A DNA stretch of 64,000 nt from assembly GCA_024690605.1 (NCBI GenBank), contig JAILOV010000006.1, forward strand, positions 62,001 through 126,000, read 5' to 3'. Positions 45,555 through 58,132 of the stretch are shown piece by piece. This DNA comes from Lachnospiraceae bacterium. GTDB lineage: Bacteria > Bacillota > Clostridia > Lachnospirales > Lachnospiraceae. The translations under genes and the position numbers were made by a program. Under the pieces are notes generated by a model that had not been told where the DNA came from, searched no databases, and was given only the letters and a program-made list of their open reading frames with translations. Each line of letters begins with the position of its first letter. Positions within the stretch are counted from its first letter, which is position 1.

Positions 45555-46442
45555 ATGAGGTTCTGCAAAACCGGAACGATCCTGGGAACAGCGGTGGTCT
45601 GCAGCGTGCTGCTTGCCGGATGCGGTGAGAAATTTCCGACGCTGACGCAGGAAGAATATGATCTGATCGTCAATTATTCGGCGGGGGTGCTGTCCAAATA
45701 CAACTCTCAGAACGGTGATAAACTGACACGTCTGATCCCGGATCCGGTGGAAGAGACGGCCGCCGGGGAGGAAATGCCTCCCGAGCAGCCGGCAGCTCCG
45801 GAGAAGTCGGCGCAGAGCGCTCCGGCAAAACCGTCGGAGGAAGCGCCTGTTGAGGAAACACCGATCGTCCCGGCATCGCAGGAAGACACCGGGGAGGAAC
45901 CCGGGGTGATCATCCCTTCGGAAGAGGAAGGGACGCAGGCTTCCGAAGACAATACGGAGGAGAGCGGCGGCGCGGCCGAAGAGACGGCCCAGGCGGCAGC
46001 TGTGGAGAATGCGGTCGATATCGGTGGCAACGATCTGCTGCAGAAGATGCAGAGCGGCATCGCTGTGGACTTTAACGGCTACTATGTGCTGAACAGCTAT
46101 CCGGACAATGCGACGGGCGGGACGGTGCTGACGGCGGAGCCCGGTTGCAGGCTGCTCATTCTTTCCTTCTCGCTTCGCAATGAGACCGGCAATTCGGTTG
46201 ATGTCAATCTGCTGAGTTCCAATCCGACCTTTACGCTGATCCTGAACGGACAGCCGGTGAGCAAGAATCTGGTGACGGTTCTGGACAATGATTTCAGTAC
46301 TTATATCGGGACGATCCCCGGCGGGAATTCTGCCGGAGCCGTGCTGTGCTTCCAGATCCGGGAAGGGCAGGCCAAGTCGATCGACACGTTGAATCTGAAG
46401 ATAAACTATCGCGGCGAGGAGCAGGTCCTCAGGATCGAATAG
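45555..46442 (+). CDS. Putative lipoprotein with C-terminal DUF4352-like beta domain
   Basis: The 295-aa protein has a lipoprotein signal (LLAGC at about 18-22). A region of about 110 residues rich in Glu, Pro and Ala (50-155) forms a spacer, and a C-terminal domain (about 165-295) has a beta pattern, with LLILSFSLRNETGNSV followed by VNLLSSNPTFTLILNG, resembling telokinin/DUF4352-type immunoglobulin-like lipoprotein domains. The role is unknown. The ribosome binding site GGAGGAAG is strong. Confidence 0.75.
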   Translation: MRFCKTGTILGTAVVCSVLLAGCGEKFPTLTQEEYDLIVNYSAGVLSKYNSQNGDKLTRLIPDPVEETAAGEEMPPEQPAAPEKSAQSAPAKPSEEAPVEETPIVPASQEDTGEEPGVIIPSEEEGTQASEDNTEESGGAAEETAQAAAVENAVDIGGNDLLQKMQSGIAVDFNGYYVLNSYPDNATGGTVLTAEPGCRLLILSFSLRNETGNSVDVNLLSSNPTFTLILNGQPVSKNLVTVLDNDFSTYIGTIPGGNSAGAVLCFQIREGQAKSIDTLNLKINYRGEEQVLRIE

Positions 46443-46562: not shown

Positions 46563-47471
46563 ATGGATACAAAGATCCTGCTCGAAAGCGGCAGCAACGA
46601 ACTGGAGGTTCTGGAGTTTACGGTTGACAATCACGCCTACGGCATCAATGTGGCGAAGATCAAGGAGATCATCCCCTATGAGACCGTCACGCCGGTACCG
46701 AACGCACATCCGAGTATTGAGGGCATCTTTATGCCGCGTGATGTCATGATCACGGCGATCGATCTGCGCAACTGCCTGCAGCGCGGCGATTCCGAGCCGG
46801 GCGGCCTGTTCATCATCACCAATTTCAACAAGCTGGATATCGCTTTCCATGTGGATACGGTCATCGGGATCCACCGCGTCTCCTGGGTCGACATCATCAA
46901 GCCGAATGCGACGATCTCCAAAGCGGAGGAGAGCATTTCGACCGGCATCATCAAGTTTGAGGACCGTCTGATCATCATCCTCGACTTTGAGAAGATCGTC
47001 TCCGACATCAATCCCAATACGGGCCTGAAGATGGAGGATCTCAAGGGCTATGGCAATCGCACCAGGAACCGCATCCCGATCGTGCTGGCCGAGGATTCCC
47101 AGCTGCTGAACAAGCTGATCGTCGATTCCCTGAATCAGGCCGGCTATGACAATGTCAAGCATTTTGAAAACGGCAAGCAGGCCTATGATTACGTCAAGAA
47201 TTGCCGTGACAACGGAACGCTTGAGGAAAACGTGAAGTGCATCATCACGGATATCGAGATGCCGCTGATGGACGGCCATCGTTTCACCAAACTTCTGAAA
47301 AATGACGACGCGACGAAGAACATCCCGGTCGTCATCTTCTCTTCTCTGATCAACGAGGAGATGCGGCGTAAGGGCGACGCACTCGGTGCCAACCGTCAGA
47401 TGACCAAGCCGGAGATCGGAGATCTTGTGTCAGTGGTGGATGAGCTGGTAGGGATCAAGCCGGCTCAGTAA
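46563..47471 (+). CDS. cheV: Chemotaxis coupling protein CheV (CheW-REC)
   Basis: The 302-aa protein combines an N-terminal CheW domain (about 10-155; EVLEFTVDNHAYGINVAKIKEII, PRDVMITAIDL) with a C-terminal receiver (about 168-300). Receiver marks are LAEDSQ (acidic pair), IITDIEMPLMDG with the phospho-aspartate, FSS and the Lys in MTKPE. CheV links receptors to CheA and is tuned by phosphorylation. No cheA, cheY or flagellar gene lies in the window. It is followed 12 bp later by a large membrane protein with FliM-like motifs. Confidence 0.93.
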   Translation: MDTKILLESGSNELEVLEFTVDNHAYGINVAKIKEIIPYETVTPVPNAHPSIEGIFMPRDVMITAIDLRNCLQRGDSEPGGLFIITNFNKLDIAFHVDTVIGIHRVSWVDIIKPNATISKAEESISTGIIKFEDRLIIILDFEKIVSDINPNTGLKMEDLKGYGNRTRNRIPIVLAEDSQLLNKLIVDSLNQAGYDNVKHFENGKQAYDYVKNCRDNGTLEENVKCIITDIEMPLMDGHRFTKLLKNDDATKNIPVVIFSSLINEEMRRKGDALGANRQMTKPEIGDLVSVVDELVGIKPAQ

Positions 47472-47483
47472 TGAGACAGGTAC

Positions 47484-50400
47484 ATGAATTCCAGTAGCGA
47501 GAGTTATCTTGACAGTCTGCTGTCCGCCATGATGAGCGGCGGCAGGAAGAAGAATAAAGAAGAGAGCGGGGAGCCTGCGCAGGAGTCTGTGACGGATGCG
47601 CAGGCTCCTGTTGATGCGCGCGATGTGACAGAAATCATCGATGATGATTTTGCCGGTGAGAGCAAAGATCTTCAGGAGATCAGTGATCTCCTGAAGGCTG
47701 CGGATGAACATGTCATCGTGGATCCCGAACTGGCGGCTGAGTTCGCGGAGTTCCAGGAGCCGCCCAAGGTTCAAGCACCGACCATGAACGAGTGGATCGA
47801 AAAGGTGACACCGAAGGCGGAACCGGAGGAAGAGCCGCAGACGCCCCCGGAGCCCATGCCGATGCCTGCGCCGGCGGAGATGGCCGTATCCGATCCGATC
47901 CCTGCGCCGATCCCCGAAACCGCTGCGGATGTGACCGCCGATTTGATCGCGGAAGCGATATCGAGGCCGGAGCCCGAACCGGAATCGATTCCCGAACCGG
48001 AGCCGATTCCTGAGCCTGAACCGATTACGGAGCCAATCCTTGAGCCTGTACCTGAGGTGATCCCGGAACCTGAAGCAGTTCCTGAACCGGAGCCGATCCC
48101 GGAACCGGAACCGACCCCTGAACCGGAGCTGATCCTTGAGCCTGAACCGATTCCCGAACCGGAACCGATCCCGGAGCCTGTGATGCCGGAACAGCCTGCT
48201 GATGCGGTTGCGGATGAAGAGTCCGCGGATATCGCGTCGATCATTGCTGCGATGGACGGAGAAGCGCCGTCTGCAGAACCGACCCCCGAACCGGAATTGA
48301 TCCTCGAGCCTGTACCTGAGGCGATCCCGGAACCTGAAGCAGTTCCTGAACCGGAACCGATCCCCGAGCCCGGGCCAATCCCGGAGCCGGTAGCTGAGCC
48401 TGCAGCGGAACCTGCACCCGAACCCGAACCTGCGTCGATCCCGGAGCCTGAGCCGATTTCGGAACCCGAACCGGCACCCGCACCTGTGATGCCGGAACTT
48501 TCCGGCGATCCCAATGCGACGATGGATCTCGATGATATCGCGGCGATGTTTGCGGCGATGGGCGGCGACACACCTGCAACGGAAGCCCCTGCAGAAGAGG
48601 CGGCTCCTGCACCGGAACCGATCCCGGAACCTGAACCGATCCCCGAGCCCGAGCCAATCCCGGAGCCGGTAGCTGAGCCTGCAGCGGAACCTGCACCGGA
48701 ACCCGAGGCAGCACCGGAACCCGAGCCGGAACCGGCACCTGCACCCGAACCGGAACCTGCACCCGCACCTGCGATGCCGGAACTCTCCGGCGATCCGAAT
48801 GCCAAGATGGATCCCGACGATATCGCGGCACTGTTTGCGGCGATGGGCGGAGACGCACCCGCAGCGGAAGCCCCTGCAGAAGAAGCGGCTCCTGCACCGG
48901 AACCCGAGGCAGCACCCGAACCCGAACCTGCGCCGGAACCCGAGGCAGCGCCCGAACCGGAACCCGAGGCAGCGCCCGAACCGGAACCTGCACCCGCACC
49001 TGCGATGCCGGAACTCTCCGGCGATCCGAATGCCAAGATGGATCCCGATGATATCGCTGCGCTGATCGCTTCCATGAGCGGAGATGAAGCGGGAGAAGAG
49101 CCGGCGGCTGAACCGGCGCCCGAACCGGAGCCCGCATCGGAACCGGCGGAAGCGGAACCCGATATCCTGAACGATCTTCCCGAGGCAGTGGAAGAACCGG
49201 CAGGTGAAGATCCTGATTTGGACCACATGACGCAGGAAGAGATCGCCCGCCTTTTCGTCGGCGAGGAGCTTCCGGCTGCGGCAGCTCCCGCTGTTGATGA
49301 TTCCGAGGATGCCGCGGCAGAGATCGATGCGCTCATGAGCACACTCATGAGTGACGGAGAACCGCAGGAAGAGACACCTGCACCGGCCCCTGCGCCGGAA
49401 GAAAACAATGAACCGGAACCCGCGGCGGATATGTCCGATGAGGAAGCGTTGGCTGCCATGCTTTCGGAAGGCATGGACGGCGCAACCGATATGCCTGAAG
49501 GCGGAGAAGAGGCGGAGGGCGAAGAAAGTGAGGAAGGCGGGGAAGGTGAGAAGAAGCCCGGTTTCCTGGCGCGCCTGATCGCCCGTCTGTTCAAAGGCGG
49601 GAAAAAGGAGCAGAAGGAGGCTGTTGATCCAAACAGTATCGATGGTCTGATGGATCTGGATGAAGCCGCCGGGATCATCAAAGAAAAGAAAGAAGGGATC
49701 TTCAAACGGATCGCAAAGGCACTCACCGAATCCGTGGAGGATATGGAAGAAGCGGAGGCCGCGGAGCTCGCTGCGGCTGCCAGTGATGCCGACGCGCTGG
49801 CGAATCTGTCCGACGAGAACCAGAAGATTCTGGAGGAACTGAACGGAAAGCCTGCGGAAGAAGACGGGGGCAAGAAGGGCAAAAAGGAAAAGAAGAAAAA
49901 GGAAAAGAAGCCCAAGAAGGAAAAGCCCAAGAAGGAGCCCAAGCCCAAAAAGGAAAAGAAACCCAAGAAGGAAAAGCCCAAGAAGGAGAAGCCGGCGGGA
50001 CCTCCGGTCAAACGCATTCCGCCCGGACGCTTTGTACTGGCCTTTGCTTTTGCGATCACGCTGGGGATCCTGTTGTCCATGCCGACGCTTCTCCTGCCGG
50101 AATACAATGCCTTAAGCGACGCGCAGGCTGCCTATGACCGCGGCGATTACAAAACAGCCTATGAGTATTATTACGGCAAGAAACTCGAGGCGGAGGATAT
50201 GACGCGCTTCCAGCAGTCGTGGCTGATCTACACCATGCAGCGCTATCAGGATGCTTATAACAACTACATTTTTGCCGGCCGCCCGACCGATGCGCTGAAC
50301 GCGCTGATAAAGGGCATACAGGCCTATGACGAGATCTACGCGGCCGCGGAGACCTATAATGTGCAGGGGAATGTCACGCAGAACTATGAGAACATCGTGT

Positions 50401-50516
50401 ACTTCCTGGAGGATCGCTTTGGTCTGACGGTAGAGGACGCGAAGGAACTGATCGCCATAGAGGATCCGCAGGAATACACAAGGCGTCTGCAGGAGATCAC
50501 CGGTTCGGAGAAGTAG
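47484..50516 (+). CDS. Membrane protein with Pro-Glu repeat linkers and repeated FliM/FliY-like EIDALL motifs
   Basis: A 1010-aa protein whose start follows cheV by 12 bp. Residues about 160-560 are Pro-Glu/Pro-Ala repeats, interrupted by short helices of one kind: [14 protein letters not shown] (7-19), [14 protein letters not shown] (247-260), [14 protein letters not shown] (349-362), [14 protein letters not shown] (444-457), [14 protein letters not shown] (521-534), [10 protein letters not shown] (582-591), [15 protein letters not shown] (611-625) and [14 protein letters not shown] (653-666). These resemble the LSQxEIDALL peptide of FliM/FliY that binds CheY-P. A Lys/Pro-rich segment (about 800-840) precedes one membrane helix (849-872), and about 138 helical, TPR-like residues are outside. 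Motifs would be cytoplasmic. Confidence 0.75.
48183..49082 (+). repeat. Imperfect in-gene repeats ([15 protein letters not shown] units)
   Basis: Four imperfect copies start at 48183, 48489, 48774 and 49005 (spacing 306, 285 and 231 bp), each with MPE..., an acidic stretch and a DIAAxxAxM helix, separated by (PEPx)n-coding DNA. Copies 3 and 4 are almost identical at DNA level over their first 50 bp, suggesting recent duplication. Differences in spacing come from the number of Pro-Glu units. Confidence 0.8.
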
Positions 50517-50518
50517 AA

Positions 50519-51127
50519 ATGATCGCTGTCATCGATTACGGCGCGGGCAATATCCGCAGTGTAGAAAAAGCCTTGCAGGCACTGAATCAGACCGTGAAGA
50601 TCACGGATGATGCTGCGGAGATCCGGCGCGCGGACCATGTGATCCTGCCCGGGGTCGGCATGTTCGGTGACGCGATGAAGAGACTTGATGCGTCGGGACT
50701 GTCGGATACGATCCGTGACACGATCGCGTCGGGCACACCTTTTCTCGGTATCTGTCTGGGACTTCAGCTGCTTTTTGAAGAAAGCGAGGAATCCCCCGGC
50801 GTTCCGGGACTGTCCGTTCTCTCCGGCAGGATCCGTCGTCTTCCCGAAGGAGATGGGCGGAAGATCCCGCAGATCGGCTGGAATGACCTCCGTTTTCCGC
50901 GGGAGGGTCGGCTTTTCCGGGGACTGGATAACGAAGCCCCTTATGTTTATTTTGTACATTCCTTTTATCTGGAGGCGGCGGATCCCTCGATCGTGACAGC
51001 AACCTGCGCTTACGGTGCCACCGTTCACGCTTCGATCGAAAAGGACAACGTTTTTGCCTGTCAGTTTCACCCGGAGAAGAGCAGTGATCTCGGGATGAAG
51101 ATACTGGACAATTTCGTTCATATTTAA
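50519..51127 (+). CDS. hisH: Imidazole glycerol phosphate synthase, glutaminase subunit
   Basis: HisH hydrolyses glutamine and passes ammonia to HisF. The 202-aa class I amidotransferase has IDYGAGNIRSVEKAL at the N terminus, the nucleophile elbow FLGICLGLQLL and the His-Glu pair in CQFHPEKSS, with the conserved YFVHSFY. It begins 2 bp after the previous stop. Only hisH and hisF of the histidine pathway are present here. Confidence 0.96.
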   Translation: MIAVIDYGAGNIRSVEKALQALNQTVKITDDAAEIRRADHVILPGVGMFGDAMKRLDASGLSDTIRDTIASGTPFLGICLGLQLLFEESEESPGVPGLSVLSGRIRRLPEGDGRKIPQIGWNDLRFPREGRLFRGLDNEAPYVYFVHSFYLEAADPSIVTATCAYGATVHASIEKDNVFACQFHPEKSSDLGMKILDNFVHI

Positions 51128-52683: not shown

Positions 52684-54731
52684 AGCAGCGAAAAACGGAG
52701 AACTTTATCCTGCTCTTAGTGTCACTTGGCTGTATCGGCATGACCGTGGAGAGCGTCCTCATGGGCTGGGAATTCTGGGTTCCCCCCCTGATCATTCTGG
52801 GAACCATCCTCATCTGGGTGATGAACATCTCTTCCTGGCCGGATTATGAGATCCGAACAGTCGCCTATCTCATCTATGCGATGCTGGCGGTGTTCTTTCA
52901 CGGGGTTCATGAGACGAGCTTCTTTGACGCCGCGCTGGTGGCCGTGCTGGCCATGGTGGGTTATTCCCTTTTCGATCATGTCTACATGATGAATCTCTTC
53001 CTGCTGGAATACTGGATCATCATGTTCATCCAGATCATGCTCGCGCATGATACCGGACATACGACATTTGATGCCCTGACCGTCTCGCGGATCCTCCTGG
53101 ATCTCGCCATCGTAGCTCTGGTTTTCTTCTGCTGCGTCAAGTCTATCGACGACCGGTTGGAGGTAAGGGAAACGGAGAATGAACTGCGGGAGAGGATCGA
53201 AAACACCGATGCCGACATGGAGGATTTCCTTTCCAACATTTCTCATGAACTGCGCACGCCTGTCAATGTGGTCAACGGCATGTCGGATCTTCTGATCAAG
53301 AAAAATGTCGGATCCGAGCCTTATTCCATCAAGGACGCGGGGATCCGTCTGGCTTACCAGATCGAGGACATCCAGGATTACACCGAGTGTAAACGCAAAA
53401 AGGTCCTGCTGGATGAGGACGACTACATGAGTACCTCCCTCATCAACGATGTGGTGACGAGTTTCCGGATGCTGGAGAACAACGCGGATCTGGGACTGGT
53501 GGTGGATCTGAATCCCGCGGTACCGACCCGGATGCGGGGCGATGTCCGCAAGCTTCACAAGATCTTCCGGCACTTGCTGGAGAACGCCGTGAAATTCACG
53601 AAACGGGGCGGTATCTATGTGAAGATGTACACGGAGAACAAGGATTACGGCGTGAACCTGTGCATCGAGATGACGGACACCGGCATCGGCATGGACAGGA
53701 AAGCGATCGAAGCGGTGTCGGAGGGCATGTATCAGGTGAACAAGAAACGGAACCGCAGTTCCGGCGGCATCGGTCTGGGGCTCTTTATCGTATACGGCTT
53801 TGCCCACCGGATGGGCGGCTTCGTCAAGATCGAGAGCAGGAGATCCTATGGCACCACGATCCGCGTCACCGTGCCGCAGAAGGTGGTGGATGAATCTCCC
53901 TGTCTCTCTCTGTCCGGTGCCTTTAAGGGTGACATCCTCTTCCACGTGCGGTCTGACAAGTACAAGGTCCCGAGGGTGCGTGATTTCTACCGGGCCATGG
54001 CGGCTGATCTGGCAATAGGTCTTCGCGTACCGCTTTATTCCGCCGAGACCATCCGGGAGATCGAGAATCTGATCGAGAAGCAGAACGTCACTTATATCTT
54101 CATGGGGCAGGAAGAATACGAGGAGAATCCGGAATACTTCGATAAACTGAGCGAGGGAGATATCGTGGTCGCGGTGTCTGCCGGAACGGGGTTTAAGACC
54201 AATCCGGGCAGCAAGGTCATGATGATGCCCAAGCCGCTCTACGGCTATCCGGCCGTCAAGATCCTGAATGAAGGCAGAAACGCCCGCAACATCGAATTTG
54301 CCGACAGTGCGGTCAGACCGGTGTTCAACGGGGTCCGGGCGCTGATCGTGGATGACGAACCCATGAATCTGGTGGTGGCCAGCAGCCTCTTTTCCGGTTA
54401 CGGAATGATCACGGAGACCGCGGACAGCGGAAAGGAAGCCATCAAAAAGTTCCGCGGCAGCGACTATGACCTCGTGTTCATGGATCACATGATGCCGGAA
54501 ATGGACGGCGTGGAAGCCATGAAGGAGCTCCGAAGGGTCGCGGAAGCGGAAAATCGGACGATCGTGATCGTGGTCCTGACGGCCAATGTGGTCTCGGGTG
54601 CCAGGGAGATGTTCATGCGCGAGGGCTTTGACGGCTTCATCGCCAAGCCCATCAATACGGCGGATTTTGAGAGAGTCCTGCTGCAGGTGCTTCCCGGATC
54701 GTGGACGGAACAGGGAGGTGAGAACGCATGA
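52680..54731 (+). CDS. Hybrid sensor histidine kinase (HK-pseudoreceiver-REC)
   Basis: The 683-aa membrane kinase has about five helices in residues 8-160 with very short loops and no large extracellular domain. The dimerisation motif NISHELRTPVN has His189, and the ATPase N box is ENAVKF and G box SGGIGLGLFIVYG. Residues about 415-540 resemble a receiver fold without phospho-Asp. The C-terminal receiver (about 555-680) has VDDEPMN, Asp602 in FMDHMMPEMDG, LTAN and FIAKPI. No Hpt domain is present, so phosphate may pass to the Hpt of a neighbouring kinase. It overlaps ung and the next kinase by 4 bp each. Confidence 0.9.
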   Translation: MKQRKTENFILLLVSLGCIGMTVESVLMGWEFWVPPLIILGTILIWVMNISSWPDYEIRTVAYLIYAMLAVFFHGVHETSFFDAALVAVLAMVGYSLFDHVYMMNLFLLEYWIIMFIQIMLAHDTGHTTFDALTVSRILLDLAIVALVFFCCVKSIDDRLEVRETENELRERIENTDADMEDFLSNISHELRTPVNVVNGMSDLLIKKNVGSEPYSIKDAGIRLAYQIEDIQDYTECKRKKVLLDEDDYMSTSLINDVVTSFRMLENNADLGLVVDLNPAVPTRMRGDVRKLHKIFRHLLENAVKFTKRGGIYVKMYTENKDYGVNLCIEMTDTGIGMDRKAIEAVSEGMYQVNKKRNRSSGGIGLGLFIVYGFAHRMGGFVKIESRRSYGTTIRVTVPQKVVDESPCLSLSGAFKGDILFHVRSDKYKVPRVRDFYRAMAADLAIGLRVPLYSAETIREIENLIEKQNVTYIFMGQEEYEENPEYFDKLSEGDIVVAVSAGTGFKTNPGSKVMMMPKPLYGYPAVKILNEGRNARNIEFADSAVRPVFNGVRALIVDDEPMNLVVASSLFSGYGMITETADSGKEAIKKFRGSDYDLVFMDHMMPEMDGVEAMKELRRVAEAENRTIVIVVLTANVVSGAREMFMREGFDGFIAKPINTADFERVLLQVLPGSWTEQGGENA

Positions 54732-57700
54732 AGATCGTGAATGTGATCAAATATGTGCTGTACTGCATCCGGGATCCGGAGCGGGATTTTTCGGAGCGTG
54801 TCTTCCTGATCCTGACGCTCATCTCGGAACTGACGGTTCCCCTTGCTCTGGTGGCCGATATCATCACCGGAGAGCATCTGCAGGAGATCCTCGTGCTCAT
54901 CGGCGTGGTAATCATTGTTCCGACGATCACCCTGGTGTGTCTGTATAAAAACAGGCTGACCCTGGCGATCCGGATGATCGTGATCAGTCTTGTTCTGTTT
55001 ATTCTGCCTGCACTCTACTTTTTCGGCGGAGGTCTGGAAGGCGGCGGTGTCGTGTGGATCATCTTCGGATTTACGTATGTGGGTTTGACGATGTCCGGCA
55101 GATGGCGTCGTGTGATGCTTTTCCTTCTCTTTATCATGTCCGGGATCTGTTTTCTTTCGGAGTATTTCCATCCCGAATGGGTCACGGAGCATTCCCGCTG
55201 GATGCTTTTTGTGGATTCCTTTATCTCGTTCATCCTGGTCGGGTTTGTGTGTTTCTACATGACCTGGTCCCAGAATCAGCTTTTCATGAAAGAGAATGAG
55301 CGGGCCAGAAAAGCGGCGGAGACGGCTGAGGAACTGACCAGAGCGCAGAACCGGTTCTTCTCCAGCATGAGCCATGAGATCCGCACGCCGATCAATTCGA
55401 TCCTGGGTCTGAACGAACTGATCCTCAGAGATCAGAGCGCGTCGGACGAGGTGGTCCGTGATGCCACCGGGATCCAGGGTGCCGGAAAACTCCTGCTCGC
55501 TCTTATCAACGATATCCTGGATTTTTCCAAGATGGAGGCCGGCAGCATGGATATCGTCCCTGTGGATTACCGCGTGGGCGATCTGATCTCCGAGGTCGTC
55601 GGCATGATCTGGCTGAAAGCCCAGGATAAGGGCCTGCGATTTGATGTCAGTATCGATCCGAAGGTGCCCACGGTCCTGTTCGGTGATGAGATCCGGATCA
55701 AGCAGGTGATCATCAATCTGTTAAACAATGCCGTAAAATACACGAAGGAAGGTTCGATCGAACTCCATATAGACAGTGAGGAGACGGATGAGAAGACCGC
55801 GCTCCTGACGATCACCATCTCCGATACCGGCATGGGGATCAAAAAAGAGGCGCTGCCCCATCTCTTTGATGCCTTCAAGAGAGTGGATGAGGAAAAGAAC
55901 CGCCATATCGAGGGAACGGGACTTGGTCTTTCCATCGTCAAACAACTGGTCGAACTCATGGACGGAACGATCGCCGTCAGCAGCATTTACGGGGAGGGTT
56001 CCATCTTTACCGTCACCCTGAAGCAGGGGATCACCGATCCCACGCAGATCGGTGAACTGAACATTCACAATCAGCAGACGGCCAAGCGGAGCAGATATGA
56101 GAGCAGCTTTACGGCACCGGATGCCAGGATCCTTATCGTGGATGACAATGAGATGAACCTGGAGGTGGAGAGCAAACTCCTTGCGGAAACGCACATCCAT
56201 ATCGATAAGGCGCTGAGCGGCAGGGATGCGCTGGAACTCACCCTGCAGAATCACTATGACGTGATCCTCATGGATCATCTGATGCCGATGATGGACGGCA
56301 TCGAGTGTCTGGAGCATATCCGGAGTCAGGACGGCGGACTTAACCGCACGGTGCCCGTGGTCGTGCTGACAGCGAACGCGGGAAGCGAGAACAGGGATCT
56401 GTATAACCGGTCCGGCTTTGATGGGTATCTGATGAAGCCCGTATCGGGCGAGGCTCTGGAAGAGATGCTCATGCGGCACATCACGAGGGACAAGCTGATC
56501 ATCTCCGGCAGAATGATGCGGATGCGCGAGGATATCAGCGCCACGGCGGGCTATGCCAGAAAACAGCCGGTCATCATCACCTCTACCAGCATGTGTGATC
56601 TCCCGGATGCGGTCGTCAGGAAGCTGGGCATCCCGATCCTGCCGTTCGTGATCCACACGGATGAGGGAACTTTCAAGGACGGCGTGCAGATGGATGCCAG
56701 CGAGATGATCCGCTACGTCCGTGACGGAAAGAACGCGGTTTCCTCGCCGCCGGATGTAAAGACCTATACGGAATTCTTTGCCGGCGCATTGAAAAAAGGA
56801 CATCATCTGATCCACATCGCTCTCACCACCAGCATGAGTGAGGATTATAAGATCGCCACAGAGGCGGCAAAGTCCTTTGACAATGTGACGGTCATCAATT
56901 CGGAAGTTCTCTCCTCGGCCACCGGCATCCTTGTGCTGATCGCCTGCAAACTGGCGCAGCAGAACATCCCGCTGGAGGAGATCATCGAAGAACTGAACAC
57001 CGTGAAGCAGCGTCTGCGGTGCAGTTTCGTGATCGACACCACGGAATATATGGCGGAAAGGGGTCTGATCAGCAAACGGCTGGATCGTATCGCCCGCACA
57101 TTGAGTCTCCATCCGGGTCTTAGGATCAGAAACGACCGGTCCGGGATCGGCGGTGTCTGGATCGGGAGAACAAAGAGAGCCTACCGCAAGTATATCCATC
57201 ACGCGTTTCCCGTGGACATCATCCCGGACGGAGATGTTGTGTTCATCACTTATGCGGATGTCCCGCTCGCCACGCTGGAATGGATCCGTGAGGAGATCAG
57301 CAAGATCGCCTACTTTGAGCATGTGGTCTTCAAACAGGCTTCCGCGGCCATTTCTTCGAACTGTGGGCCGGGTGCCGTGGGAATCCTGTATTTCGTAAAG
57401 TCCAACAAATCCTATAATATCGGTTCCTTCATTGAGGATGAGACGAGTTTCGCGCACGAGGAGTTCCCTGAGGAGATCGAGGATGAAGAGGGGAGCGCAG
57501 ATGCGGAGAATACAGAAGAACCGGCGCCCGCTGAGCCTGATGCATCCGCCGAGCCCGCGTGGTATGAGAAACTGACCTTCATCGACGGGGAAGCAGCGAT
57601 CCGCAACAGCGGATCGGAGGACGCCTTCCGTTCCGTCCTGAAGATCTTCCATGGTTCCATTCCGGACAAGACGGCGGAACTGGAGAATTTCTACACATCG

Positions 57701-58132
57701 GCGGACTGGCAGAACTATGTCATCAAGATCCATGCGCTGAAGAGTTCCGCGAAGCTCATCGGCGCGCTCGCACTCTCGGATAAGGCACAGCTTCTGGAAA
57801 CGGCCGGCAAGGAGGGCAATACCGACTACATCCGCGAGAACCATGCCTCCTTCATGAAGGATTACGCGGAGCTGGGGAGCCAGCTGGATGCCGTGATGGC
57901 AGAAGAGAGCGGATCGGACAAGCCTGTCGCGGACGATGATCTGATGGTGAGCGTCTTTGAGGAACTGCGCGCGGCAGCAGAGGCCATGGACTGTGACACC
58001 ATCGGCGGGATCTTGCAGGAGATGGAAGCTTACGCGATCCCGGAGACTGACCGGGAACGCTATGACGCTGTGACAGAGGCAGCAGGGAAGTTCGATTATG
58101 AAGGCATGCTGGCTGCCCTGGATCAGCCGTAA
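54728..58132 (+). CDS. Hybrid histidine kinase with DegV lipid-binding domain and Hpt (HK-REC-DegV-Hpt)
   Basis: An 1134-aa protein. Six hydrophobic helices occupy residues about 25-185. The HisKA motif MSHEIRTPIN has His216, with N box NNAVKYT and G box GTGLGLSIV. The receiver (467-590) has VDDNEMN, Asp516 (MDHLMP) and LMKPV. Residues about 612-900 form a DegV/FakB-like domain: VIITSTSMCDLP with the lipid-contact Ser/Thr zone, VSSPPDVKTYTEFF, TTSMSEDYKIATEAA and IDTTEYMAERGLISK. An acidic linker leads to an Hpt domain with His1002 (IHALKSSAKLIGA) and a last 65-residue unit shared with the third kinase. DegV proteins bind fatty acids, so a lipid-sensing role is likely but unproven. Confidence 0.88.
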   Translation: MKIVNVIKYVLYCIRDPERDFSERVFLILTLISELTVPLALVADIITGEHLQEILVLIGVVIIVPTITLVCLYKNRLTLAIRMIVISLVLFILPALYFFGGGLEGGGVVWIIFGFTYVGLTMSGRWRRVMLFLLFIMSGICFLSEYFHPEWVTEHSRWMLFVDSFISFILVGFVCFYMTWSQNQLFMKENERARKAAETAEELTRAQNRFFSSMSHEIRTPINSILGLNELILRDQSASDEVVRDATGIQGAGKLLLALINDILDFSKMEAGSMDIVPVDYRVGDLISEVVGMIWLKAQDKGLRFDVSIDPKVPTVLFGDEIRIKQVIINLLNNAVKYTKEGSIELHIDSEETDEKTALLTITISDTGMGIKKEALPHLFDAFKRVDEEKNRHIEGTGLGLSIVKQLVELMDGTIAVSSIYGEGSIFTVTLKQGITDPTQIGELNIHNQQTAKRSRYESSFTAPDARILIVDDNEMNLEVESKLLAETHIHIDKALSGRDALELTLQNHYDVILMDHLMPMMDGIECLEHIRSQDGGLNRTVPVVVLTANAGSENRDLYNRSGFDGYLMKPVSGEALEEMLMRHITRDKLIISGRMMRMREDISATAGYARKQPVIITSTSMCDLPDAVVRKLGIPILPFVIHTDEGTFKDGVQMDASEMIRYVRDGKNAVSSPPDVKTYTEFFAGALKKGHHLIHIALTTSMSEDYKIATEAAKSFDNVTVINSEVLSSATGILVLIACKLAQQNIPLEEIIEELNTVKQRLRCSFVIDTTEYMAERGLISKRLDRIARTLSLHPGLRIRNDRSGIGGVWIGRTKRAYRKYIHHAFPVDIIPDGDVVFITYADVPLATLEWIREEISKIAYFEHVVFKQASAAISSNCGPGAVGILYFVKSNKSYNIGSFIEDETSFAHEEFPEEIEDEEGSADAENTEEPAPAEPDASAEPAWYEKLTFIDGEAAIRNSGSEDAFRSVLKIFHGSIPDKTAELENFYTSADWQNYVIKIHALKSSAKLIGALALSDKAQLLETAGKEGNTDYIRENHASFMKDYAELGSQLDAVMAEESGSDKPVADDDLMVSVFEELRAAAEAMDCDTIGGILQEMEAYAIPETDRERYDAVTEAAGKFDYEGMLAALDQP

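Follow-up and report, generated by a model that had tools for sequence, protein, structure and literature searches.

The window analysed here is a 64,000-nucleotide (nt) stretch of a Lachnospiraceae genome (GenBank assembly GCA_024690605.1, contig JAILOV010000006.1, positions 62,001 to 126,000 of the forward strand), and it contains, at 47484..50516 on the + strand, a gene for a 1010-residue protein that we call the scaffold. We found that the scaffold belongs to a Lachnospiraceae family that has no Pfam or NCBIfam model, no family of either database having matched the protein above cut-off. The members combine a distinctive anatomy with a conserved motif similar to the EIDAL peptide at the N terminus of the C-ring proteins FliM and FliY; their gene is linked to cheV, and they co-occur with FliM-type domains and FlhF. 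The family probably represents a previously undescribed hub on which flagellar or chemotaxis proteins dock, and no description of it was among the open-access literature matches listed. We infer topology, docking, client identity and a landmark role; the reading that we favour tentatively, and which could well be wrong, is that the scaffold is a membrane hub or landmark of FlhF-type Lachnospiraceae flagellar systems, whose EIDAL-like helices would dock proteins that read the FliM/FliY N terminus.

The first-pass annotation of the window had described an open reading frame (ORF) with Pro-Glu linkers and one membrane helix near residue 860, and both features were confirmed. The protein consists of an acidic, Pro/Glu-rich arm (net charge of residues 1-775, -180), a Lys-rich collar at residues 795-849 (49866..50030; 53% Lys plus Arg), a membrane helix at residues 850-872 (50031..50099) and a C-terminal all-helical domain (50100..50513), all of these and the helices described below being on the + strand. 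The membrane helix was located by hydropathy, with a maximum at 851-869, and is helical in an AlphaFold model, with confidence below that of the rest. The C-terminal domain, which is recognised by the family profiles A1/A2, was modelled with a mean predicted local distance difference test (pLDDT) score of 87 and seven helices past the membrane helix; it gave generic fold matches only, and no FimV match in NCBIfam. An acidic arm followed by a late membrane helix was likewise seen in 10 listed homologues. Because the Lys collar would fix the topology, the C-terminal domain probably lies outside the membrane and the arm inside, the long, disordered arm extending into the cytoplasm.

The N-terminal helix and its internal relatives

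The best-conserved element of the arm (E-E-Y-L-D-S-L-L) is a predicted docking helix at residues 3-17 (47490..47534) with the family consensus xEEYLDSLLxS. To follow it we read 80 proteins, namely the window protein, 33 from the same genus and 46 from a wider draw, 3 of which are again from this genus; their open frames run from about 450 residues, where a contig end cuts the frame, to 2100, with large differences in the arm from one species to the next. The N-terminal helix persists while the remainder of the arm diverges, being kept in 67 of the 70 homologues with a readable start (64 matched by a regular expression for xEEYLDSLLxS, plus 3 variants). The expression matched 64 of the 80 proteins; among the 16 misses, 8 are cut by contig ends (L041, L042, L047, L054, L060, L062, L151 and L186), 2 are masked (L056 and L185) and 3 are the variants (L158, L162 and L181). 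The helix is lacking in L071, L184 and L188, the last counted as a miss with a frame that starts 44 nt from the contig start, and in some homologues it precedes the first ATG of the frame. Both L071 and L184 bear internal FliM-like copies instead: VMTPDEIAALLAASD (score 17.7) and LSPEEIAAMFAAAG. Ahead of the N-terminal helix, L158, L162, L168, L171 and L180 carry a CxxC...CxxC stretch reminiscent of a zinc ribbon.

The likeness of this helix to known peptides was evaluated with a profile made from 44 non-redundant homologue N termini, from which the window was left out (one of the 44, from L047, comes from a cut contig and is not a true N terminus). It was run on 32,547 peptide windows from 84 ORFs of the host genome, the "genes" of this and of the later host backgrounds being script-called, non-overlapping long ORFs and not annotated genes. 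The host's own FliM N terminus ranked 3 and that of FliY ranked 7; both are classic, reading VLSQSEIDALLNGLSSG in FliM and MLSQDEINALLNGMD in FliY. When 41 FliM/FliY proteins were scanned with the same profile, the N terminus was the best window in 30. On 22,335 windows of 72 Escherichia coli proteins, taken in this case from annotated genes, rank 1 went to the C-terminal tail of CheZ (15.0 versus 11.8 for the next window). None of 816 control profiles, made from other conserved stretches of CheV, the C-terminal domain, FliM and FliY, reached the top 3 for FliM, the top 7 for FliY or the top 10 for CheZ; the nearest had ranks of 19, 17 and 41 for FliM, FliY and CheZ, respectively, and another had 5, 11 and 294. 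A PDB search with the N terminus of the window protein gave no match. As judged from the profiles, the helices, chiefly the N-terminal one, which the first-pass annotation cited as one example, are of the FliM/FliY/CheZ type, and the scaffold has an EIDAL-type N-terminal helix that is a partial match, with Tyr in place of Glu.

It had been proposed that the protein carries eight FliM-type helices. We count nine amphipathic helices, all short and acidic (at residues 3, 60, 244, 346, 441, 518, 581, 608 and 651), but only two to six of them are good motifs. These were scored with a second profile, made from 41 Lachnospiraceae FliM/FliY N termini (the FliM profile), against a background of 31,658 windows. 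Six peaks of at least 5 were found in the window protein, where the rate in other ORFs predicts 0.5; for shuffled versions of the protein, the count was 0.23 for whole and 0.37 for block shuffles (300 of each kind, with a maximum of 2 in both). The best score, 10.7 for the helix at residue 3, exceeds the 95% points of both shuffle types (7.6 whole, 9.3 block), and 1 of the 31,658 background windows scored as high. The helix at residues 518-532 (49035..49079) scored 9.7, with 2 background windows as high, and only these two helices match at the level of the best background windows. The helices at residues 441-455 (48804..48848) and 608-622 (49305..49349) each scored 6.4, with 14 background windows as high, followed by residues 60-74 (47661..47705) with 5.8 and 15 windows, and residues 346-360 (48519..48563) with 5.1 and 16 windows; the DLxEIGxLL element of residues 60-74 recurs in several printed Butyrivibrio homologues. 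By this profile, two copies in the window protein are strong (3 and 518) and four are moderate (441, 608, 60 and 346), and for this reason a count of eight FliM peptides overstates the case.

The remaining three helices are weaker. The EIDAL-type helix at residues 581-595 (49224..49268) scored only 4.0 with the FliM profile, and it is one of 3 matches in the 80 homologues to the strict pattern [LM][ST]QxE[IL]xx[LM][LMF], of which 0.003 are expected from shuffles. The helix at residue 244 scored 0.4, and that at residues 651-663 (49434..49472) was absent from the FliM-profile peaks above 0, its N-terminal-profile score being 8.3, with 7 of 32,547 windows as high.

Over all 80 proteins, the FliM profile gave 210 peaks of at least 5, where the background rate would yield 31 and five shuffles yielded 44-56. 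A relaxed LSQxEIDxLL pattern, which was widened (for example, to LSP) after examples had been viewed, occurred in 27 copies in 16 of the 80 proteins, 12 of the copies being repeats (8 in L154 and 4 in L184), compared with 0.68 in shuffled sequences and a single one after reversal. A scan of 58,343 background residues with this pattern gave 4 places, 3 of which are FliM/FliY N termini. A core pattern, [EDQNY]h[DEN]x[LM][LM], gave 219 copies, a count inflated by tandem arrays and relatedness, versus 17 (standard deviation 4.5) in shuffled and 43 in reversed sequences. The internal copies are weaker than the N-terminal helix and lineage-specific. The arms of some species contain huge tandem arrays of their own, such as GDINIDEMMAAEP in L045 (IDEMM type) and EMEDLLGSLN in L048 (MEDLLGSL type). 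The core of the earlier proposal, a membrane protein with FliM-like docking helices, survived strict controls, the N-terminal helix foremost, whereas the copy number did not.

Distribution, co-occurrence with FlhF and gene neighbourhood

Searches for the C-terminal domain gave matches in 34 of 37 same-genus genomes and in none of 24 genomes from other families. A profile search of 392 genomes of the order gave matches in 71, of which 69 belong to the same family (31 genera). This draw holds 81 family members with FliM-type domains and 84 with CheW, and the FliM-negative set consists of 23 listed genomes. The scaffold was present in 69 of the 81 FliM-positive and in 0 of the 23 FliM-negative family genomes (Fisher p=1e-14, relatedness not corrected), and all 69 scaffold-bearing genomes have both FliM and CheW. 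A family-wide profile applied to the 12 FliM-positive exceptions and the 23 FliM-negative genomes found no convincing scaffold, with three weak partial matches (E 0.004-0.008). Scaffold loss tracks flagella, not CheW: four relatives with CheW and no FliM match (G323, G360, G366 and G413) all lack the scaffold. In two genera (g29 and g56), some members have FliM and the scaffold and others have neither; therefore, at least two joint losses are likely.

FlhF, which was called above a curated cut-off and tested in 45 of the 69 scaffold-bearing genomes, was present in all 45, in 1 of the 12 FliM-positive genomes without a scaffold (G211) and in none of the 23 FliM-negative genomes. Expressed the other way, the scaffold occurs in 45 of 46 tested FlhF-positive genomes versus 0 of 11 FlhF-negative flagellates. 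CheW is present in 10 of these 11 flagellates and CheV in 9 of the 10 queried, and in the seven FlhF-negative loci that were read, cheV comes after cheC- and cheD-like ORFs. Therefore, given the FlhF split and the presence of CheW and CheV in scaffold-less flagellates, the scaffold follows FlhF-type systems rather than chemotaxis alone.

Directly upstream of the scaffold gene is cheV (46563..47471, + strand; Pfam CheW 4.7e-29, Response_reg 1.7e-17), which bears out the annotated cheV neighbour with a receiver domain. Its stop codon lies 12 nt before the scaffold ATG, and from this spacing it is plausible that the two genes are on one transcript; 5 promoter-like sites were found at the locus versus 4.3 expected. 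Directly downstream is a gene that we take from its sequence to be hisH-like (50519..51127, + strand) and that served as a synteny marker, a hisH match (tblastn) having been found downstream of the scaffold in 33 of 33 same-genus loci (L041-L073). Within the genus, cheV is upstream of the scaffold in 27 of 27 loci with sufficient contig (6 of the 33 were too short), and in the wider draw it is so in 38 of 42 (4 of 46 contigs were too short), or in 65 of 69 assessable relatives overall; it is lacking there in L144, L154, L172 and L185, the last partly masked. The gap between the two genes ranges from 0 to about 1.1 kb, with 2.3 kb in L149. The proposed link of the protein to chemotaxis and flagella thus stood up, the family being tied to flagella and situated beside cheV across the sampled Lachnospiraceae.

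Commonly, cheV is followed by an unnamed gene of about 275 codons and then by the scaffold and hisH; the window lacks the middle gene. This gene (L127:1398-2225, about 275 residues, with equivalents in L115, L124, L137, L128, L143, L147, L148 and L150) encodes a protein for which the one example scanned had no Pfam match. Two genomes with neither FliM nor scaffold, G413 and G323, have cheV, an ORF that resembles the middle gene by eye, and hisH; a third, G366, has a CheV-like ORF without a receiver, with hisH directly after it.

The host is represented by a 2.76-Mb draft genome that is 95% complete and is of the same genus as contigs named Butyrivibrio, a genus within Lachnospiraceae. It also encodes FlhF, two CheV proteins and an orphan CheY-like gene, together with ORFs that, reading their sequences, we take to be FlhG, CheB, CheA, CheW, CheC and CheD; CheW and CheC were additionally found by family search. 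The second CheV (L227, G000:C56:3267-4163), on the same contig, is 78% identical to the CheV of the window, and the ORF that follows it on the same strand is not a scaffold and is presumably similar to NAD-dependent DNA ligase. Directly after fliY (L074:11550-13210) comes a FliO-like ORF, without an intervening cheY, and the single-domain CheY-like gene (L229:1746-2174) is on a different contig from fliY.

Just upstream of cheV in the window, positions 45555-46442 encode a Pro/Glu-rich, lipoprotein-like protein of 295 residues with no Pfam match at E 0.01. Farther downstream, 54728-58132 encodes a 1134-residue hybrid kinase, the later part of which we presume to resemble a DegV-type lipid-binding domain with a phosphotransfer domain after it. 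In the four Butyrivibrio loci scanned, the contig terminates in a 23S rRNA 3' end that is a few hundred bases away from cheV on its upstream side (L063:1-329, L053:1-326, L069:11498-11817 and L055:11193-11361), and this is probably why many contigs break upstream of cheV; the window instead has the lipoprotein-like gene and a histidine kinase there.

Proposed mechanism and alternative readings

In the mechanism that we propose, the conserved FliM/FliY/CheZ-type helix would be at the tip of the arm, with further copies along the arm that vary by lineage, and the scaffold, by mimicking the FliM/FliY N terminus, would retain the readers of that peptide. FlhG would be the likeliest client, in which case the scaffold would place or count flagella, as do HubP/FimV in gamma-proteobacteria, and phosphorylated CheY (CheY~P) could use the same helices. 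FlhG has been described as binding the FliM N terminus, and FliY residues 1-36 as necessary and sufficient for FlhG binding (PMC12826062, PMC12327844). Because the scaffold tracks FlhF, and because of this published binding at FliM/FliY N termini, FlhG seems a slightly better guess than CheY~P, which is close behind. A more far-reaching form of the proposal, possible but doubtful, is that this is an undescribed landmark family working by mimicry, in which the arm copies of the FliM/FliY peptide would capture FlhG, in competition or jointly with CheY~P; placement and the chemotaxis signal would then meet on one hub, and the motif copies would expand and turn over independently in each species. 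How landmarking and confinement work beyond single polar flagella is called unclear in a 2025 review (PMC12826062). The scaffold family would be a concrete landmark candidate in Lachnospiraceae (69 of 81 sampled FliM-positive family genomes), and the EIDAL peptide, known from C-ring proteins, may be a portable docking tag that has been placed on a separate membrane protein.

A number of observations weigh against this proposal. The best FliM-profile score, 10.7, is below the highest obtained in shuffles (10.9 whole, 16.8 block), and the copies in the window protein score 4-11, compared with 38-40 for the four FliM training peptides printed. On the N-terminal profile, two unrelated windows outrank the host's own FliM, another window beats the N terminus in 11 of the 41 FliM/FliY proteins, and the E. 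coli FliM N terminus ranks only 73; moreover, the N-terminal helix has Tyr where the FliM EIDAL has Glu. In its domains, the scaffold departs from HubP/FimV in having neither a LysM match (Pfam, E up to 1; NCBIfam, E up to 0.1) nor a FimV match. Other Clostridia manage without a scaffold, since only two weak matches (E about 5e-4) were found outside the family among the 392 genomes. G211 has FlhF and no scaffold, and the FlhF-negative flagellates possibly form a single clade equipped with another flagellar system, in which case few events may underlie the association with FlhF. The linkage to cheV suits a chemotaxis role equally well, and an AlphaFold model of CheV followed by the N-terminal helix had a mean pLDDT of 40.

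A chemotaxis role could take the form of a hub or buffer in which the motifs bind CheY~P and either store it at the membrane or tune its supply to the motor, which corresponds to the main idea of the first-pass annotation with CheY as the client. The motif resembles both known CheY-binding peptides, the FliM N terminus and the CheZ C terminus, which use one common face of CheY (PMC3774744); the host has an orphan CheY-like gene, FliM, FliY and CheC/CheD-type genes, and cheV is the upstream gene in nearly all assessable relatives (65 of 69). We nevertheless consider this rather unlikely, since the scaffold is absent from the 11 FlhF-negative flagellates despite their CheW (10 of 11) and CheV (9 of 10 queried), and since its loss goes with flagella and not with CheW (4 of 4 relatives with CheW and without FliM have no scaffold). 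In the other form, the receiver of the adjacent CheV would dock on the motifs, which would thus anchor chemoreceptor arrays to the envelope. This would explain a gene neighbourhood conserved across the family, and two scaffold-less genomes fit it: G366, whose CheV-like ORF at this locus is devoid of a receiver, and G211, the sole FlhF-positive relative found without a scaffold, which has no CheV match at E 1e-20. However, the 27 printed CheV receivers (74 were aligned) have Gln at the beta5 position where the host CheY has Phe, whether a scaffold gene is present or not, and because of this replacement one would not readily expect the CheV receiver to serve as a CheY-like partner. When 62 scaffold-linked CheV proteins were set against 7 scaffold-less ones, a comparison confounded by ancestry, just 3 positions of the receiver showed consistent differences; G413 and G323 retain CheV with its receiver yet have no scaffold, and the co-fold, at a mean pLDDT of 40, was uninformative. 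CheV receivers are therefore less supported as clients, and this form seems quite improbable.

It could also be that nothing docks, the arm being an acidic disordered spacer of an envelope protein with an EIDAL likeness that arose by chance, and the conserved job residing in the C-terminal domain. The family is indeed defined by that domain, and the internal motifs vary much by lineage and score far below the printed FliM peptides. This would leave unexplained that the N-terminal helix is kept while the arm diverges, that 0 of 816 profiles in the specificity controls behaved similarly, and that the core pattern is direction-specific (219 copies versus 17 shuffled and 43 reversed), and we regard it as improbable.

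Comparison with known systems

HubP/FimV proteins are described (PMC12918733) as carrying a single membrane region together with an extended, acidic cytoplasmic portion that varies from species to species, as well as a TPR-like helical domain, and as being connected with flagella and chemotaxis. The scaffold shares with them one membrane helix, the long acidic arm, a predicted helical domain and the flagella/chemotaxis link. It differs in that the order is reversed, with the N terminus predicted to be inside and the helical domain probably outside, and in that the conserved element of its arm consists of EIDAL-like helices. In layout the scaffold resembles HubP/FimV, yet the domains tested place it outside that family.

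The likeness to the FliM/FliY N-terminal peptide is that of a helix situated N-terminally on a disordered stretch, with the same I/L-D-x-L-L pattern. In contrast to FliM/FliY, the scaffold has no FliMN_C (SpoA, PF01052) or CheC match (Pfam, E up to 1), it has Tyr for Glu, and it is not a C-ring protein; the two FliMN_C matches of the host are both at G000:C74. The CheZ peptide sits at the C terminus of a soluble phosphatase. The helix resembles the CheY-binding peptide of CheZ, which came first among the 22,335 E. coli windows scored with the N-terminal profile, whereas no CheZ family match was found in the scaffold with Pfam.

GpsB is a small coiled-coil cell-cycle protein. In Bacillus subtilis, this non-C-ring protein binds FlhG at a site that partly overlaps the FliY site, confining flagella (PMC12327844). 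The scaffold would be comparable to GpsB if it, too, binds FlhG as a non-C-ring protein, the two being likened by description only. Set beside these systems, the scaffold would be an acidic membrane hub that uses EIDAL-type mimicry.

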